Shown: positions 13,115 to 41,521 of the stretch, piece by piece
Layout: each line of letters begins with the position of its first letter
How positions within the stretch are numbered: position 1 is the first letter of the stretch
NCBI GenBank assembly: GCA_023381565.1
Contig: JAMCRR010000030.1
Coordinates: 1-47,645 of the forward strand
DNA: 47,645 nucleotides
DNA from: Chloroflexota bacterium
Lineage (GTDB): Bacteria > Chloroflexota > Anaerolineae > Anaerolineales > Anaerolineaceae
Direction: 5' to 3'
Notes under the pieces: model-generated
Database searches by the model: none
The model's input: only the letters and a program-made list of their open reading frames with translations
What the model was told of the DNA's origin: nothing
Position numbers and translations under genes: made by a program

Positions 13115-14182
13115 ATGGCTGACCGCACCGAAGCACCTACTCCACGCCGTCTCGAGGATGCCCGTTCCGAGGGCCAGGTGGCGCGCAGCCTGGAGCTGAA
13201 TACCGCCTCCATCCTGCTGGTAGGAGCATTGCTCCTCGGTGGGCCGGGGAAGGCGCTTCTGGATGGGATGAAAGCGTCGCTGACCGATGCCCTGTCTGCC
13301 CTGCCGGGAGCAACCATCACTGACTCCTGGCTGCGCGATTGGCTGATTACCGAGCTGATCCGGGTGGTTCCCAGTTTAGGAGTGGTAATGGTCGGGTTGC
13401 TGGTGACCGGCGTCAGTGTGACCCTGGTCCAGACCGGCTTTTTGTGGACCAGCAAGCGCATCGGCTTTGACTTCAAGCGGGTCAACCCGCTGACGGGGCT
13501 GCAGCGGATCTTTTCTACCCAGGGGCTGGTTGAGCTCGGCCGGGCGCTGCTCAAGCTGGGGTTGGTCGGGTGGGTGGCATATACATCCTTGCAAGGAGAA
13601 TCCTCAGAGTTGCTGCGCTTGAGCCAGATGGATTTCTTATCTGCGCTGCAGGATTGGAGCAACCTGGCGCTCTCGCTGGCAATCCGCGTAGGGGGCGCCT
13701 ACGTATTCCTGGCTGCCGCCGATTACGCCTACCAGCGCTGGAAGTTTATGCGTTCTTTGCGCATGTCGAAAGAGGAAGTCAAGGAAGACCTGAAGCGGTC
13801 CGAAGGGGATCCTTTCTTACGCGGGCGCATCCGGGCGCAGCAGCGCCGCCTGGCGCGCAGCCGCATGATGGCGAATGTGCATAAGGCCGATGTGGTGATC
13901 ACCAACCCTACCCACTTTGCCGTGGCGATTGCTTACGATCCCCAACAGATGCATGCGCCGCGCGTGCTGGCTAAAGGAGCTTATGCCGTGGCCCAGCGCA
14001 TCGTGGAGCTTGCCCGCTCGAGTGGAGTGCCGGTAATTCAGAATATCCCGCTGGCGCGTGCGTTGTACCGCAGTGTGGAAGTCGACCAGGAGATCACGCC
14101 GGAGCTTTATTTAGCGGTGGCGGAAGTTCTGGCTTACGTGTTCCGGTTGAACGGGCGCAGCCCCCACCCTGCCCAACCGTGA
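13115..14182 (+). CDS. flhB: Flagellar export switch protein FlhB
   Basis: 355 residues, family length. Opens with RTEAPTPRRLEDARSEGQVARS, has four membrane helices, then the cytoplasmic domain with the self-cleavage site NPTH at 264-267 (VVITNPTHFAVAIAYDP). Cleavage between Asn264 and Pro265 switches export from rod/hook to filament substrates together with FliK. All key residues are present. A second, separate copy of the cytoplasmic domain is encoded at 24247-24540. It lies 5 bases after fliR, 29 before flhA. Confidence 0.97.
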   Translation: MADRTEAPTPRRLEDARSEGQVARSLELNTASILLVGALLLGGPGKALLDGMKASLTDALSALPGATITDSWLRDWLITELIRVVPSLGVVMVGLLVTGVSVTLVQTGFLWTSKRIGFDFKRVNPLTGLQRIFSTQGLVELGRALLKLGLVGWVAYTSLQGESSELLRLSQMDFLSALQDWSNLALSLAIRVGGAYVFLAAADYAYQRWKFMRSLRMSKEEVKEDLKRSEGDPFLRGRIRAQQRRLARSRMMANVHKADVVITNPTHFAVAIAYDPQQMHAPRVLAKGAYAVAQRIVELARSSGVPVIQNIPLARALYRSVEVDQEITPELYLAVAEVLAYVFRLNGRSPHPAQP

Positions 14183-14211: not shown

Positions 14212-16302
14212 ATGGCAGCAACTGCACCGGCAATAAAGGGAATGAACCTGGACCTGAAGCGACTGCTCCAGTCCAAAGATATCGCCATGGCGATCGGGCT
14301 CGTGGTGATCGTGGGCCCCTTGCTCGTGCAGCTCCCTCCCGGGATGGTGGATCTGCTCGTTGCATTGAACCTGGCCGTCTCGATTGGGATCATGCTGCTG
14401 ACCATGTATATCTCCCAGCCGATGGAGTTCTCGGTCTTTCCGACTGTCCTGCTGCTGGTCACCCTGTTTCGCCTGGGAATCAACATTGCCGCCAGTCGCT
14501 TGATTCTGCTCAGCGGCAATGCCGGGACCGTGATCGCTACCTTTGGCGATATGATCGTCGGCGGAAATTACGTCGTTGGCGTGGTCATTTTCCTCATGTT
14601 GATGATCATCCAGTTCGCTGTGATCAACTCCGGCGCGGGCCGGGTAGCAGAGGTTTCGGCACGCTTCACCCTGGATGCCATGCCGGGGAAACAGCTCTCC
14701 ATCGACGCCGACCTGAACGCCGGCCTGATCGACGAGACAGAGGCGCGCGCTCGCCGTAAAGCCATCGAGACTGAGGCGGATTTTTACGGCGCCATGGACG
14801 GCGCCAGCAAGTTTGTTCGCGGGGATGCCATCGCCGCCATCATCATTATGGTGGTGAACATCATCGGCGGCTTTGTGATCGGCATGATGCAGCGTAACCT
14901 GGATCTGATGCAGGCCTTGCAGAGTTATACCCTGCTCACCGTCGGCGCAGGACTCGCTGTGCAGGTGCCGGCTCTGCTGGTTTCGGCGGCTTCAGGCTTG
15001 ATCGTCACACGCTCGACTTCCGAAGCCTCGCTGGGCACCGACCTTTTCGGGCAGCTTTCCAATTTCAACGCCCTGGCAGTTGCTGCGGTGATCGTCGGCT
15101 TGCTCAACTTCGTCCCCGGTTTACCCAAGCTGCCTTTCATCCTGGTTAGCCTGACCCTGGGAACGGCTGCTTATTTCGTCCAGCGCATGCGCAAGGGAGA
15201 GACGAACCTCACCGCAGCCGTACCGCAGGCAACGACGGCCGAACCCGAAAGCCCCGAAGATATGCTCGAAATGGTCGTCGTCGACCCGATGGAGCTGGAA
15301 ATCGGCTATGCTCTCATCCCTCTCATCGACGAAGACGCCGCCGACAACCTGCTGCGCCGCATTACCAGCATCCGCCGCCAGATGATGGCGGAGATGGGTT
15401 TGATCTTGCCGGTGGTGCGCATTCGCGACAACCTGCGCCTGCAGCCGCAGGAATACCGCGTCAAGATTCGCAGCCAGGAAGTCGCCCGCGGCGATCTGCT
15501 GCTCGACCGTCTGCTGGCTATCCCAGGCTCTGACGCCGATGAGCAGCTGCGCGGTGTCGAGACCCACGAACCGGCTTTCGGGCTGCCGGCGCTGTGGATC
15601 CCCGAGCCAGAGCGCGGCAGGGCAGAGCTGCTGGGTTACACCGTGGTGAACCCGCTTTCGGTGCTGAGCACCCACCTCACCGAAGTGGTGCGCGCTCACG
15701 CCCCAGATCTGCTGAGCCGGCAGATGGTGCAAGAAATCTTGAACCAGCTCAAATCGAAGAGCCCGGCTTCGGTGGAAGGGGTGATCCCAGAGATGCTCAG
15801 TTTGGGCGAGGTCCAGGCGGTGCTGCGCAACCTGCTGAGGGAACGCGTGCCAGTCCGCGACCTGAGCGGCATCCTGGAGGTACTGGCGAATCACGCTGGC
15901 GCGACGCGTGACGCGAGCATACTGTCCGAAGCAGTGCGCCAGTCGATGGCGAGCACGATCTCGAGCCAGTACCGGGATGAAAAGAACACCCTGCACGTGA
16001 TTACCCTCTCGCCCCAAATTGAAAGCGCGCTGCGCTCTGCGTTAACCTCCGGGGAAGGCGGGCTGGGTTTCCAGATCGATGCGACCCTGGCGCAGGGCAT
16101 CCTGGCCCGTACGGGTGCGCAGATGGAGAAATTAGCCGAGGAAGGGTTCCTGCCCATTCTGCTCTGCCCGCGCGAGCTACGTCTGGCTTTCCGCCGCCTG
16201 GTGGAGCCTTCGCTGCCGACTCTGGTGGTGCTGGCATATTCGGAGATCAGCCCGGGAACGAAGGTGCGGGCGCATGGCATGGTGGAAATCACACCAGGAT
16301 AA
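14212..16302 (+). CDS. flhA: Flagellar export gate protein FlhA
   Basis: 696 residues, normal length. The N-terminal half has eight membrane helices with the family signature around TLFRLGINIAASRLIL and the charged loop GRVAEVSARFTLDAMPGKQLSIDADLNAG (FHIPEP region); the C-terminal half from ~350 is the cytoplasmic domain forming the nonameric ring that docks chaperone-substrate pairs (FliS, FlgN and others, also encoded here). AGAGGAG precedes the ATG. The signature reads FRLGINIA where many FlhA have FRLALNVA, a mild variation. No truncation. Confidence 0.97.
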   Translation: MAATAPAIKGMNLDLKRLLQSKDIAMAIGLVVIVGPLLVQLPPGMVDLLVALNLAVSIGIMLLTMYISQPMEFSVFPTVLLLVTLFRLGINIAASRLILLSGNAGTVIATFGDMIVGGNYVVGVVIFLMLMIIQFAVINSGAGRVAEVSARFTLDAMPGKQLSIDADLNAGLIDETEARARRKAIETEADFYGAMDGASKFVRGDAIAAIIIMVVNIIGGFVIGMMQRNLDLMQALQSYTLLTVGAGLAVQVPALLVSAASGLIVTRSTSEASLGTDLFGQLSNFNALAVAAVIVGLLNFVPGLPKLPFILVSLTLGTAAYFVQRMRKGETNLTAAVPQATTAEPESPEDMLEMVVVDPMELEIGYALIPLIDEDAADNLLRRITSIRRQMMAEMGLILPVVRIRDNLRLQPQEYRVKIRSQEVARGDLLLDRLLAIPGSDADEQLRGVETHEPAFGLPALWIPEPERGRAELLGYTVVNPLSVLSTHLTEVVRAHAPDLLSRQMVQEILNQLKSKSPASVEGVIPEMLSLGEVQAVLRNLLRERVPVRDLSGILEVLANHAGATRDASILSEAVRQSMASTISSQYRDEKNTLHVITLSPQIESALRSALTSGEGGLGFQIDATLAQGILARTGAQMEKLAEEGFLPILLCPRELRLAFRRLVEPSLPTLVVLAYSEISPGTKVRAHGMVEITPG

Positions 16303-23018: not shown

Positions 23019-23903
23019 ATGCGCATATCTACCCCGGTCATCTTCGATAACGCCATCCGGCACATGACGGCCAACCAGACACTCCTGGCCGCGCTGCAGG
23101 AAAAAGCCTCCTCGGGGAAGCAGTTTACGAATATCTCCGATAACCCGACGGCTGCCTCTACTGCGCTAAGCTTGCGTTCCACCCTGCAGATCGGGCAGGA
23201 TTATCTATCTACGGCTCAAAATACAGATGATTGGATGAGCGCCACCGATCAGGCTTTTCAGCAGATGTCGGACCTGGCAAAACGGGCCATCTCGCTCGTG
23301 GTGGAGGGGCTTTCTGATACCCTTGGGGACAGCGAGCGCAAGAACGCTTTGGGCAGCGAAATGGGAGCCTTGATAAACCAGGCTGTGGACCTGGGGAACG
23401 CTTCTCACCAGGGTAATTATCTGTTCTCGGGGTTCCAGATCAAAACCAGGCCCTTCTCTTACGATGGGAGCGACAGCGTGGATTATCAGGGTGATAACGG
23501 GACGATGCTGCGCGACCTGGGACCTGGCCAGACGGTTGCGGCCAACACCGACGGTGAGCAGGCGTTTATGCCTTTCTTTGAGGCGCTGATATCAGCTCGC
23601 AATGCATTGAACGATTTCAACCGGAACGACCTGCAAGACAGCCTGGATGCCTTGAACGGCACACTCGATACGGTCAGCCAGTACCGCGCCGACAACGGCG
23701 CCCGCCAGCGCGAGGTTAAAGCCGTCATCGACCAATCTGAAAATACGCAGCTCCAATTGAAGAGCTTGCTGTCTAAAAAGGAAGATACCAACATGGCTGA
23801 AGCGATCTCTTTGCTCCAGGCGCAGGAGACCACCTACCAGGCGGTCTTGGAAGTCAGCCAGCGGTCGATTTCGATGTTGAACCTCTTCGACGTTCTGCGG
23901 TGA
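23019..23903 (+). CDS. flgL: Flagellar hook-filament junction protein FlgL
   Basis: 294 residues, flagellin-like: MRISTPVIFDNAIRHMTANQ at the start, KASSGKQFTNISDNPTAA, the middle GNYLFSGFQIKTRPFSYDG typical of FlgL, and the C-terminal helix SKKEDTNMAEAISLLQAQETTYQAVLEVSQRSI. Links FlgK to the filament. Length is normal. ATG at 23019, 18 bases after flgK. Next is csrA. Confidence 0.95.
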   Translation: MRISTPVIFDNAIRHMTANQTLLAALQEKASSGKQFTNISDNPTAASTALSLRSTLQIGQDYLSTAQNTDDWMSATDQAFQQMSDLAKRAISLVVEGLSDTLGDSERKNALGSEMGALINQAVDLGNASHQGNYLFSGFQIKTRPFSYDGSDSVDYQGDNGTMLRDLGPGQTVAANTDGEQAFMPFFEALISARNALNDFNRNDLQDSLDALNGTLDTVSQYRADNGARQREVKAVIDQSENTQLQLKSLLSKKEDTNMAEAISLLQAQETTYQAVLEVSQRSISMLNLFDVLR

Positions 23904-23918: not shown

Positions 23919-24170
23919 ATGCTGGTACTCACGCGGCGGATCGACGAGATTCTGAATATTGGCGAGAACATCACGGTGACCGTGCTGGCTATCGAGGGAG
24001 ATAAAGTCAAGCTGGGAATCAAAGCCCCGCGTGAAATACCCATCTTACGCAACGAGATCTATCAAGCGGTAGCCGCGCAGGAAATGCTTGCGAAAAGCCT
24101 GGCTTCAGGCCTCGAGCCGGATAGCTTCCAGGATTTGCGCGATTTGCTAGCGGCAGAAGTGGATAAATAA
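23919..24170 (+). CDS. csrA: Translational regulator CsrA
   Basis: 83 residues. MLVLTRRIDEILNIGENITV, then VKLGIKAPREIPILRNEIY with the RNA-binding Arg kept. About 20 residues longer than enteric CsrA: the C-terminal helix extension is like that of CsrA proteins which bind FliW in Bacillus and Campylobacter. Here fliW is not between flgL and csrA and not elsewhere in the window. As the last gene of a FliA/FlgM-controlled operon it is made with the late genes. Probable target: the flagellin leader (40414-40450). ATG after GGGGAG. Confidence 0.96.
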   Translation: MLVLTRRIDEILNIGENITVTVLAIEGDKVKLGIKAPREIPILRNEIYQAVAAQEMLAKSLASGLEPDSFQDLRDLLAAEVDK

Positions 24171-24246: not shown

Positions 24247-24540
24247 TTATTTGTAGGCCTTCTGGATGCGGTAGACGTACGCCAGCACCTCGGCGACCAC
24301 CGCATACAGCTCGGGGGGAATGACCTGGCCCACGTCTACGCCTGCCAGCGCGCTGACCAGTATGGGATCTTCCCGGATGGGGATGCCTTCGAGGCGAGCC
24401 AGCGCCAGGATCTGTTCGGCCAGTTGTCCTTCTCCGGCAGCTAACAAGCGCGGAGCTTCGTCATGGAGGGGGTTGTACCCCAGAGCGGCTGCCTGGGGCA
24501 AGCGCCCCTTCCTTTTAGGGTGGATCGGTTTGGCGCCCAT
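24247..24540 (-). CDS. FlhB cytoplasmic-domain-like protein (FhlB/YlqH type)
   Basis: 97 residues matching only the C-terminal cytoplasmic part of FlhB: AAALGYNPLHDEAPRLLAAGEG, EQILALARLEGIPIREDPILVSALAGVDVGQVIPPELYAVVAEVLAYVYRIQKAYK. There is no NPTH; the family equivalent (YlqH in Bacillus) can replace the cleaved C-terminal part of FlhB in some species. It is the last gene of the minus-strand rod/hook operon, 4 bases after a FliK-like gene, an arrangement also seen as ylqG-ylqH in Bacillus. Function inferred from homologues. Confidence 0.9.
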   Translation of the reverse strand: MGAKPIHPKRKGRLPQAAALGYNPLHDEAPRLLAAGEGQLAEQILALARLEGIPIREDPILVSALAGVDVGQVIPPELYAVVAEVLAYVYRIQKAYK

Positions 24541-39258: not shown

Positions 39259-39381
39259 GGTTTGCTCCGGGAGAACCGGCAAGAATGCAGAAGTTATTTG
39301 TGCTTGATATCTATATCGTCAATTCTCAACAAAACTTGAGGGAGAAAAACATCAATTAGCCTATTTCGGGTCAACGCATAT

Positions 39382-39407
39382 CTACCGGATTACCGGCGGT
39401 TGCTTTA
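39382..39407 (-). promoter_or_regulatory. Possible weak sigma-28 promoter of fliD
   Basis: On the minus strand TAAA (39407-39404), 14 bases, TCCGGTAG (39389-39382), a 5/8 match to the -10 GCCGATAA. It lies ~125 bases upstream of fliD, which is a class-3 gene in most species. The short spacing and poor -10 make this tentative. Confidence 0.3.
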
Positions 39408-39466
39408 CACGCGAATTCGTTTCACATCCGTTGACCCAAAGGAGAAATCCGCCAGGCGATTAAATA

Positions 39467-39493
39467 TGTGGGGAGCCGGTTTGGCTCCCCACA
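39467..39493 (-). terminator. Terminator of the flagellin gene
   Basis: Perfect 11-bp inverted repeat TGTGGGGAGCC (39467-39477) and GGCTCCCCACA (39483-39493) with a 5-base loop, 32 bases after the flagellin stop. On the minus strand it is followed by TATTTAAT, moderately T-rich. It isolates the highly expressed flagellin transcript from fliD. Confidence 0.82.
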
Positions 39494-39524
39494 CGGATAC
39501 CCATTAATGATCGACCGGTAAGGT

Positions 39525-40412
39525 TTAGCGGAACAGGGTGAGCAAGAACTGCGGGGCGGCGTTGGCCTGGGCCAGCATGGCGGTAGCGGTCTGCTGCAGG
39601 ATCTGGAATTTGCTGGCATTCACCTGCTCTTCGGCCATGTTGGCGTTCATGATCCGGTTGTAAGCGCCTTCCACGTTGATCTGGGCAGCCGAGACCTGGT
39701 CCTCTTTGAAGGTCAGGCGTCCTTCCATAGCGCCGATCTTGGACATCTCGCCGCTGACCAGGGCAAAAGCGCCGGTGGTGGCAGGTACAACGGGGTCGGC
39801 GGTTGGATCGCCAGGGCTACCATCCAAAACGGTAAGCAGAGCATTGAATCCTGCCTGGTCGGTCAGGGCCGTCACCACATCCGTGGTAACACCCAAGGCA
39901 GTTGAACCCAGGTCGGCGACGGCGGACATGGTGGTGGTGTCACCTGAGTCCGCACCGGTTTGGAAGTTCAGATCTGTCGCACTGCCGATGAGCTTATTGC
40001 CGTTCCACTTGGTCTCGGCGACGATCTTGTCGATCTGGCCTTGGTACTCGGTGATTTGGGTTTTCAGGGCGGCGCGCTCTTCTGACCCCATGGTATCGCT
40101 GGCGCCGGACAGGGCTTTGTTGCGGATCTGGACGAGAATGTTATTGATCTGGCTTACGCCGGACTCGGCGACGGCCAGCAGGTTCTTGGCATCTCCGATG
40201 TTGGAGAGAGCTACTTTCATGCCTTCGCTGCGAGCCTGCATTTTGGTGGCGATGGTCAGGCCGGCGGGGTCGTCTGCGGCGGAATTGATGCGCTTGCCGG
40301 TAGCCAGGCGAGCCTGGTAGGTGGCGAGCTGGCGGTTGATGTTGTTCAGAGAGTTCAGGGCATTCAGGGCGCCGATATTACCGGCAACGCGAGTGACATC
40401 ATAATCTGGCAT
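39525..40412 (-). CDS. hag: Flagellin
   Basis: 295 residues, a compact flagellin with D0/D1 domains and a short middle. N-terminal NIGALNALNSLNNINRQLATYQARLATGKRINSAADDPAGLTIATKMQARSEGM is the coiled D0/D1 pattern, and the C-terminal MNANMAEEQVNASKFQILQQTATAMLAQANAAPQFLLTLFR ends with the usual FLLTLFR-type tail. The exposed middle (~160-225) is Asp/Thr/Pro-rich. It has an excellent ribosome site AGGAGG, placed in the loop of a hairpin (see the leader entry). The only flagellin in the window. Named hag from similarity to the monoderm type; fliC is the alternative name. Confidence 0.95.
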   Translation of the reverse strand: MPDYDVTRVAGNIGALNALNSLNNINRQLATYQARLATGKRINSAADDPAGLTIATKMQARSEGMKVALSNIGDAKNLLAVAESGVSQINNILVQIRNKALSGASDTMGSEERAALKTQITEYQGQIDKIVAETKWNGNKLIGSATDLNFQTGADSGDTTTMSAVADLGSTALGVTTDVVTALTDQAGFNALLTVLDGSPGDPTADPVVPATTGAFALVSGEMSKIGAMEGRLTFKEDQVSAAQINVEGAYNRIMNANMAEEQVNASKFQILQQTATAMLAQANAAPQFLLTLFR

Positions 40413-40413
40413 G

Positions 40414-40450
40414 GCAAACCTCCTTGTTTGCGTGGCGGGGATCCTTCCCC
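40414..40450 (-). promoter_or_regulatory. Two candidate CsrA-binding hairpins in the flagellin leader
   Basis: Read on the minus strand from 40450: GGGG-AAGGAT-CCCC (40450-40437), five bases, then GCAAAC-AAGGAG-GTTTGC (40431-40414). Both stems are perfect and both loops contain GGA; the second loop is part of the Shine-Dalgarno sequence AGGAGG, seven bases before the ATG. The second site AAACAAGGAGGT fits 10 of 12 positions of the published CsrA consensus RUACARGGAUGU; the first loop AAGGAT has its core ARGGAU. The GGA triplets are 21 bases apart, about what a CsrA dimer can bridge. Translation repression by CsrA is inferred. Confidence 0.75.
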
Positions 40451-40686
40451 TTTTTGAATGAATGAGTTATCCGGTTGGGCTCTCTTCGTGCGAGGGGTTT
40501 CAGTCTGAGCCCGGCTTAATTCTGAAACCGTGGACGAGCAGTGTATGGTGCAGATCGGGTTTATTCTCTGTGGTCGAGCCTCCTGAGCGATCGAGCCTGA
40601 ATGGTTTTTGTCTTTGGTCTGTTATTGTTTTCGTCTCTTGCGATATTTCCTGAAGCCTGCAGGCGTAAAAAAAGCGTAAAAATATA
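40451..40686 (-). other. Flagellin upstream region, no gene seen
   Basis: Part of a 366-base stretch between flagellin and the lipoprotein gene. CCGGATAA (40474-40467, minus) resembles a sigma-28 -10 (6/8), but no TAAA is found 14-16 bases upstream, so I do not call a sigma-28 promoter. The flagellin promoter should nevertheless lie here. No convincing small gene. Confidence 0.4.
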
Positions 40687-40724
40687 ATCAAAGAGGGGCT
40701 GAACTGGTTCAGCCCCTCTTTGAT
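40687..40724 (-). terminator. Terminator after the DUF333 lipoprotein gene
   Basis: 18-bp perfect inverted repeat ATCAAAGAGGGGCTGAAC (40687-40704) with GTTCAGCCCCTCTTTGAT (40707-40724). On the minus strand it is followed by TATATTTTTACGC, a good T-tract, so it terminates transcription leaving 40779. It also shields the flagellin promoter. Confidence 0.9.
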
Positions 40725-40778
40725 CTATAGATGAGATTTGCCATCCCGACGGGGATGTGCTTGCCTCACATTTGCTTG

Positions 40779-41360
40779 TCAGCCACCGCTTGTGCCGGAC
40801 GTTTCCGGACGGATGGAGCTGCCGGTCAGATCTGTGCGGAAAGTGGAGGGTTGGCCGTTAGGGGTTTGGACGATTATCCGATAGCCGGGCGTCTGCACCT
40901 GGGCGCAGGCTTCGGCAGCGGTGCCAAGGCCCAGGCAGGCGTCAGACCAGGTGACGGCCTCTACGGAAATCAAGCTGATCGCTGAGGGATCGATGCTCAA
41001 GCCTGACGCAAGAAATGTCCGGACTGCCTCGACTGCCAGATCACCTTCGCCAGTGCTGACCGGCGTGGTGACCTTTGGGCCACTCTCGCCCTGGCTGCAT
41101 TCGCCGCGGAAGTACGCCCATTCTTCGCATTCGCTGCCATCCGGGAAGATACAGGCGCCGTACTGGCTGCCGTCGGCTGCGGTGCGAATTTCGAGGGAGT
41201 AGCCCTTCTCGGTGCAGTACACCGAAGCCGGGTTGGCAATGCCAGTGTTGGCATCCGTTGGGGTTGCCGTCGGGGAGGGTGGCTGTTGGGCGGCGCAGCC
41301 GCTGGCAATCATGGCAGCCAGCAATAAAATGGTTAAAAAAGGAAGGCGGGTCGTTCTCAT
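40779..41360 (-). CDS. Lipoprotein with DUF333 and a C-terminal Cys domain
   Basis: 193 residues from ATG 41360, with AGGAGA before it; a longer reading has no ribosome site. Signal peptide ending in the lipobox IASGC, a Pro/Thr linker, then a DUF333 domain (NPASVYCTEKGYSLEIRTAADGSQYGACIFPDGSECEEWAYFRGEC, with its Cys pairs), then a domain with VTWSDACLGLGTAAEACAQVQTPGYRIIV, a Trp/Cys pattern shared by exported proteins of Chloroflexi and cyanobacteria. Exposed on the cell surface; function unknown. Ends at its own terminator. Confidence 0.85.
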   Translation of the reverse strand: MRTTRLPFLTILLLAAMIASGCAAQQPPSPTATPTDANTGIANPASVYCTEKGYSLEIRTAADGSQYGACIFPDGSECEEWAYFRGECSQGESGPKVTTPVSTGEGDLAVEAVRTFLASGLSIDPSAISLISVEAVTWSDACLGLGTAAEACAQVQTPGYRIIVQTPNGQPSTFRTDLTGSSIRPETSGTSGG

Positions 41361-41491
41361 TTGTGTTTCTCCTGGTTGTGGTTGGCCGGTCAGCATACTC
41401 TTGCGTATACCCCAAGCTCTGGATGTGGTTGGTTCGTTACAAATATAGGACGTCGTGTCCCTTATTTTGTTCCCCAAGAAGAAGATTAAAT

Positions 41492-41521
41492 AAAGACGCC
41501 CGGTGCAACCCGGGCGTCTTT
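41492..41521. terminator. Strong bidirectional terminator
   Basis: 12-bp perfect inverted repeat AAAGACGCCCGG (41492-41503) and CCGGGCGTCTTT (41510-41521) with a 6-base loop. T-rich sequence follows on the minus strand (TATTTAAT). It ends the redox operon/microprotein transcript, 32 bases after the microprotein stop, and lies just upstream of the lipoprotein gene. Confidence 0.92.

Follow-up and report, generated by a model that had tools for sequence, protein, structure and literature searches.

Twin hairpins in the leader of a flagellin gene

The DNA analysed here (the window) is a stretch of 47,645 nucleotides, contig JAMCRR010000030.1 of a Chloroflexota bacterium of the family Anaerolineaceae (GCA_023381565.1). 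It carries a large flagellar cluster with genes for a sigma-70 family factor (probably FliA), FlgM, FlgN, FliS, FliD and CsrA. A full flhB lies at 13115-14182, and a minus-strand frame at 24247-24540, adjoining a FliK-like gene and csrA, encodes a 97-aa protein that corresponds to the C-terminal part of FlhB only. The features treated below are:

40437..40450, minus strand: hairpin 1 (H1), GGGG-AAGGAT-CCCC, perfect; predicted upstream CsrA site; GGA at 40444-40442
40414..40431, minus strand: hairpin 2 (H2), GCAAAC-AAGGAG-GTTTGC, perfect; loop formed by the Shine-Dalgarno sequence; second predicted CsrA site, with GGA at 40423-40421
39525..40412, minus strand: flagellin gene, 295 aa, behind the leader; ATG at 40412
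40578-40583, minus strand: GGAGGC, a Shine-Dalgarno-like element that no start codon follows; conserved among flagellin leaders; not tied to CsrA
23019..23903, plus strand: flgL, directly before csrA; where fliW is csrA-linked, it sits between flgL and csrA
23919..24170, plus strand: csrA, 83 aa, predicted repressor; L4, R6, A36, P37 and R44 present; position 55 is E, not N

The original prediction, made from the letters of the window, placed two adjacent perfect hairpins here with GGA triplets 21 nt apart and the ribosome site in the second loop, in front of a flagellin gene and with csrA at 23919. Re-reading the letters confirmed the hairpins and their spacing; the gene behind them encodes a genuine flagellin by its Pfam domains (Flagellin_N, 2.6e-29; Flagellin_C, 1.5e-16), and csrA is where it was said to be (PF02599, 6.6e-23). 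The GGA of the H2 loop (AAGGAG) lies 11 nt upstream of the flagellin ATG. In H1 an extra A-U pair can close the loop, leaving AGGA as the loop.

Both strands of the window were scanned for hairpins with an ANGGAN hexaloop, at least 4 Watson-Crick pairs and a stem score of at least 10. Three were found: H1, H2 and one on the plus strand at 14794 within flhA, which we regard as chance. Sixty dinucleotide shuffles gave 1.77 such hairpins per window, so that single ANGGAN hairpins are unremarkable. H1 and H2 are the only close pair in the window (stems of at least 4 pairs), and pairs within 40 nt occurred on none of the 120 shuffled strands. Folded alone, a 48-nt element has both hairpins in 71% of its ensemble (z = -2.1, a value equalled by 5 of 200 shuffles), and the stability of the 161-nt leader as a whole is not unusual (z = -0.5). 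Rfam returned seven matches up to E 5 within 39300-41500, none overlapping 40410-40455.

The hairpins are conserved and covary among related leaders

Flagellin relatives were gathered solely by the similarity of their proteins. Of 396 class genomes 25 gave a match, and named genome records supplied 46 loci. Three loci without the N-terminus (L014, L029, L075) were left out before counting; the other 73 of 76 gave leaders, 65 of them distinct, including one betaproteobacterial record. The pattern for H1 was (G/T)ANGGA at an appropriate distance, and H2 was no selection criterion. H1 was present in 53 of the 65 distinct leaders and absent from 12, two of which (L046, L019) have another hexaloop hairpin of at least 4 pairs at that place, neither of them ANGGAN. 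At least 3 pairs in strict hexaloop register were formed by H1 in 51 of the 53 leaders; of the two exceptions, L044 is merely out of register and L022 has a loop of eight bases. H2 formed at least 3 pairs in 48 of the 53 H1-bearing leaders. The distance from GGA to GGA ranged from 20 to 32 nt (median 26). Named carriers include Anaerolinea thermolimosa, which has two tandem flagellins with identical leaders, Bellilinea caldifistulae, Thermanaerothrix daxensis and Leptolinea.

This alignment of leaders from related Anaerolineae, which the original prediction had proposed as its check, showed covarying stems and conserved ANGGAN loops. Covariation was counted over 14 pairs in two helices on the 53 leaders chosen by H1: 81% of stem cells were paired, 11 of the 14 pairs showed changes on both sides, and the covariation score was 0.326 vs 0.095 in shuffles and at most 0.092 with the partner slid. 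The RNAalifold consensus fold alone predicted only H1. When loop letters were ignored in the search, 87 of 106 hexaloop hairpins in 64 leaders were ANGGAN. The aligned H2 loop is ANGGAG in all 53 leaders, which were chosen by H1 only; its variable base, where at least 3 pairs form, is T in 30, A in 9 and C in 9. The corresponding base of H1 is A in 47, C in 3 and T in 1, the A and GGA of this loop being fixed by the selection pattern. We conclude that the twin hairpins are kept in relatives by compensating mutations.

One genome, G409, has a first flagellin (L045) with both hairpins and a second (L046) without them; paralogous flagellins within one genome may escape the control.

Further upstream, GGAGG[CT] without a start codon behind it occurs in 48 of 64 flagellin leaders at -109 to -231 (mean 4.5 and at most 9 in shuffles), and is followed by an ATCG motif in 17 of the 48. 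By its letters, this element is possibly a 5' mRNA stabiliser of the STAB-SD type, in which a Shine-Dalgarno-like sequence lies far upstream and does not direct initiation (PMC4113751); the resemblance is in sequence only. A Sigma28-like promoter, TAAA-N14-16-GCCGATAA with at most 2 mismatches, was found in 25 of 53 leaders vs 3.8% of shuffles. In 15 of the 25 the site ends 186-225 nt before the start codon, which points to leaders of roughly 200 nt. The best such site in the window itself has 4 mismatches, and none is claimed there.

Search for the twin layout at other genes

A covariance model of the twin (R1) was trained on these leaders, so that its specificity is partly built in and its result shows rarity elsewhere, not independent discovery. 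On 33 selected genomes R1 matched 23, at the flagellin leader in 22 and weakly elsewhere in G312; the 10 unmatched genomes are the csrA-less, hairpin-less ones. Across the 396 class genomes it matched 14, 13 at flagellin and one (G113), weakly, at another gene. The 13 matches lie directly before a flagellin start or, in G104 at the contig end, in tandem with one. Matches not before flagellin were those in G113 (E 0.004), G312 (E 0.07) and G417:C2 (E 0.08). The G113 match is a Shine-Dalgarno hairpin resembling H2 before a non-flagellin gene, in a genome without csrA, so an H2-like structure alone is no proof. A phylum-wide search of 301 genomes gave no match besides two same-family genomes, under stricter filters that lose weak matches: in the run over the 396 class genomes these filters, applied above 40 genomes, missed G060 and G312, both found with the 33-genome search.

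A wider regulon was sought with the pattern GGGGANGGANCCCC in 10 genomes and rejected: of 15 matches, 11 were flagellin leaders already hit by R1 and four fell within long open frames or on the strand opposite such frames, and GGGGANGGANCCCC reversed as a control gave 7 matches. No second target of the twin layout was found in the window genome or in the 10 pattern-searched genomes, where weaker or differently built targets are possible.

Co-occurrence of csrA with the hairpins

The window genome has a single PF02599 match, the csrA gene listed above. R6, which we take to be an RNA-binding residue, and R44 are present in all 51 CsrAs compared. A role of R44 in RNA binding by CsrA has been described (PMC7829508).

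Of 68 genome handles, 52 gave a match to CsrA and 15 to FliW. Four genomes had been entered twice (G202/G413, G372/G415, G382/G422 and G034/G403, with identical places or leaders); with these merged, CsrA is present in 49 of 64 distinct genomes. The hairpins and csrA co-occur, 48 of the 53 hairpin leaders coming from csrA genomes. The five hairpin leaders without a csrA match in the genome are those of G034, an assembly 94% complete in 370 contigs, and of G399, G424, G429 and G433, which are MAG records; the G399 flagellin is identical over the 170 residues used to that of G401, which has csrA. Conversely, all 10 class genomes whose sampled flagellin leader is hairpin-less have no csrA, and 10 of 11 hairpin-less class leaders come from csrA-less genomes, the eleventh being L046 of G409. 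The GGAGG upstream element is kept in 8 of these 11 leaders, which indicates that the hairpins in particular were lost or never gained. The flagellin tree shows just four changes of the hairpin trait, and the hairpin-csrA link rests on about three independent events; with so few changes a sign test cannot reach significance.

Over the family cut-off, csrA was present in 14 of 25 class genomes with flagellin vs 5 of 371 without. Among these five, G224 and G307 have divergent or partial matches, and in G289 csrA is split across two frames beside fliS. The genome with this last locus (L148) belongs to the order of the window genome and gave no flagellin match; the split csrA is likely a decaying flagellar remnant, or else a sequencing error.

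FliW and the CsrA contact residue

No match to FliW (PF02623) was found in the window genome (93% complete) by a search that detects the B. subtilis and T. maritima controls, and fliW is not beside csrA in the window, where flgL ends 15 nt before csrA. Among the 52 csrA-bearing genome handles, FliW was detected in 15, adjoining csrA in 12 of these, and gave no match in 37. Among these 37 are Leptolinea sp. HRD-7, whose genome is complete, and two cultured strains, Anaerolinea thermolimosa and Thermanaerothrix daxensis. The flgL-csrA gap is 439 to 857 nt in genomes with linked fliW (10 measured) vs 11 to 225 nt in 33 of 34 FliW-less genomes and 411 nt in the remaining one (G408). The open reading frames of this 411-nt gap were inspected by eye, and no divergent FliW was among them.

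In B. subtilis, C. jejuni and Geobacter, CsrA needs its residue N55 to bind FliW (PMC7829508, PMC13407953). N55 is kept in 12 of 12 genomes with linked fliW vs 7 of 34 FliW-less genomes; position 55 is occupied by nine different residues across the 51 CsrAs. (G143 and G150, in which the presence of FliW was not searched, are excluded from the N55 and motif counts.) Three genomes with an unlinked tandem FliW (G409, G432, G437), which fall inside an otherwise FliW-less CsrA clade, are also without N55. Tandem FliW, two matches in one open frame of 275-341 aa, was seen in G404, G409, G432 and G437 (L154, L155, L157, L159), away from csrA in three of these four genomes, and the CsrA of these three lacks N55. 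Linked fliW changes once on the CsrA tree, which argues for one loss followed by relaxation rather than many independent cases: linked FliW was probably lost once, and its contact residue then relaxed.

The C-terminus of CsrA differs too. A motif there, (L/F/I)xxL(R/K)x(F/L)(L/I), written after inspecting the alignment, is present in 34 of 34 FliW-less CsrAs; it occurs in 1 of 12 CsrAs where fliW is linked, and in 2 of 3 where FliW is unlinked. Fisher tests on these counts, on those for N55 and on those for the hairpins are inflated by kinship. The AlphaFold model of CsrA, of low confidence (pLDDT 65.7, pTM 0.39), has two predicted C-terminal helices. According to PMC13407953, a C-terminal extension is absent from sRNA-regulated homologues; an extension without N55 thus matches neither known mode of CsrA.

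The leaders differ along the same line. Among csrA-bearing leaders H2 is stronger where FliW is absent (median -6.4 vs -3.3 kcal/mol, n = 34 vs 15, p = 0.001 uncorrected for kinship), and H1 strength shows no FliW-related difference (p = 0.15). H2 is present in all 39 hairpin leaders without FliW vs 9 of 14 with FliW, the other 5 of the 14 not reaching 3 pairs. CsrA control of flagellin thus seems to persist without FliW, its known antagonist.

Relation to known systems

In the hag leader of B. subtilis, which the original prediction had offered as a parallel, there are likewise two CsrA sites, one over the Shine-Dalgarno sequence (PMC7652899, PMC6529632). That likeness stands, but the nearest described match is the flaA leader of Campylobacter jejuni. 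There, two stem-loops with ANGGA hexaloops lie side by side and the second covers the ribosome site, with a GGA spacing of 21 nt, compensatory changes in relatives, and flagellin as the main target (PMC4894983). Mutations, gel shifts and footprinting have proven the flaA layout, and CsrA is titrated by this leader as well (PMC4894983). Unlike here, C. jejuni uses FliW as the main antagonist and has a 45-nt leader (PMC4894983); FliW was not found in the window genome, and for several relatives the promoter-like sites point to a leader of some 200 nt. High-affinity RsmE/CsrA targets carry the hexaloop ANGGAN (PMC7652899), and the letters of H1 and H2 match it, here in an mRNA leader and not in a sponge RNA.

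The original prediction also read the locus as flagellin homeostasis by CsrA. CsrA-type sites and csrA itself are in place; homeostasis of the B. subtilis type, however, needs FliW, and the window genome, which has E55 instead of N55, has no FliW match, so that the feedback half of the circuit is absent or replaced.

Proposed mechanism and alternatives

We infer CsrA binding, bridging and repression at the flagellin leader. The leader's ANGGAN twin, with H2 over the ribosome site, is very probably bridged by a CsrA dimer that likely represses flagellin, although no FliW is detectable in the genome. CsrA would dock on H1, in whose loop there is no ribosome site for a start codon, and H2 would act as the switch; one dimer bridging the two would cover the Shine-Dalgarno sequence in H2, block ribosomes and so repress flagellin translation. 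The 21 nt in the window and the 20-32 nt in relatives fall inside the reported bridging range of 10-63 nt (PMC7652899).

Known relief of CsrA comes either from sponge RNAs or from proteins, FliW and CesT among them (PMC7366521, PMC7652899). Here the likeliest candidates for relief of repression are titration by the flagellin mRNA leader and a protein on the CsrA C-terminus: abundant leader could titrate CsrA, as reported in C. jejuni, which is the simplest route available, or a different protein could dock on the conserved C-terminal segment. More tentatively, at rather less than even chances in our judgement, the circuit would have lost its csrA-linked FliW roughly once within the Anaerolineae and would now depend on a different, undescribed antagonist (the twin hairpins as a sponge, or a new protein gripping the C-terminus), with the Shine-Dalgarno hairpin reinforced.

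A complete partner switch of the B. subtilis type, in which CsrA is still countered by a FliW that escaped detection through divergence or dropped out of the assembly, is favoured by the 15 FliW-bearing handles of 52, 12 of them with FliW adjoining csrA, from which the ancestor likely had FliW; the window genome is 93% complete. We nevertheless consider it improbable, given the 37 handles without a match, complete and cultured genomes among them, the short flgL-csrA gap in the window and other FliW-less genomes, and the loss of N55 in most of the latter (kept in 7 of 34 vs 12 of 12). Equally improbable is that CsrA binds but stabilises or activates the flagellin mRNA; CsrA can repress or activate in other bacteria, so that either direction has precedent. 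A second site over the Shine-Dalgarno sequence, as here, is nevertheless the repressing layout in B. subtilis hag (PMC7652899) and C. jejuni flaA (PMC4894983).

The hairpins might also work without CsrA: H2, which encloses the Shine-Dalgarno sequence, as an RNA thermometer or an intrinsic brake, and H1 as a stabiliser. The stronger H2 of FliW-less leaders would suit such a function. That account leaves unexplained the ANGGAN loop of H1, after which there is no start codon, as well as the absence of csrA from the genomes with hairpin-less leaders (10 of 10) while 8 of 11 such leaders keep the GGAGG element; we give it a small chance, hardly above that of an undetected FliW. Least credible, to the point of being negligible, is H1 as a transcription attenuator or terminator. 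Its GC-rich perfect stem in a leader, and the T-run shortly after H1 in one relative (L067), would fit, but loop identity would be irrelevant for a terminator, no T-run follows H1 in the window or in 64 of 65 leaders (at least 5 T within eight bases after H1 in just one), and this reading was rejected.

Repression by a bridging CsrA dimer, our preferred reading, extends the flaA-type twin-hexaloop leader to Chloroflexota. Among the papers listed by searches of the openly licensed literature, none was on CsrA control of flagellin in this phylum, which is not proof of absence; in the available parts of two papers that touch on it, csrA in Chloroflexota bins is named only as a storage-regulator marker (PMC11650866), and Chloroflexi are mentioned once, for FlgV (PMC11607428). 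What appears to be new is the lack of a detectable FliW in the window genome and in most of its clade, with CsrA control seemingly kept. A bacterial group appears to keep CsrA-flagellin control, its RNA site covarying, while most of its members have lost FliW and N55, and what frees CsrA once FliW is gone is directly testable in the cultured Anaerolinea thermolimosa or Bellilinea caldifistulae.
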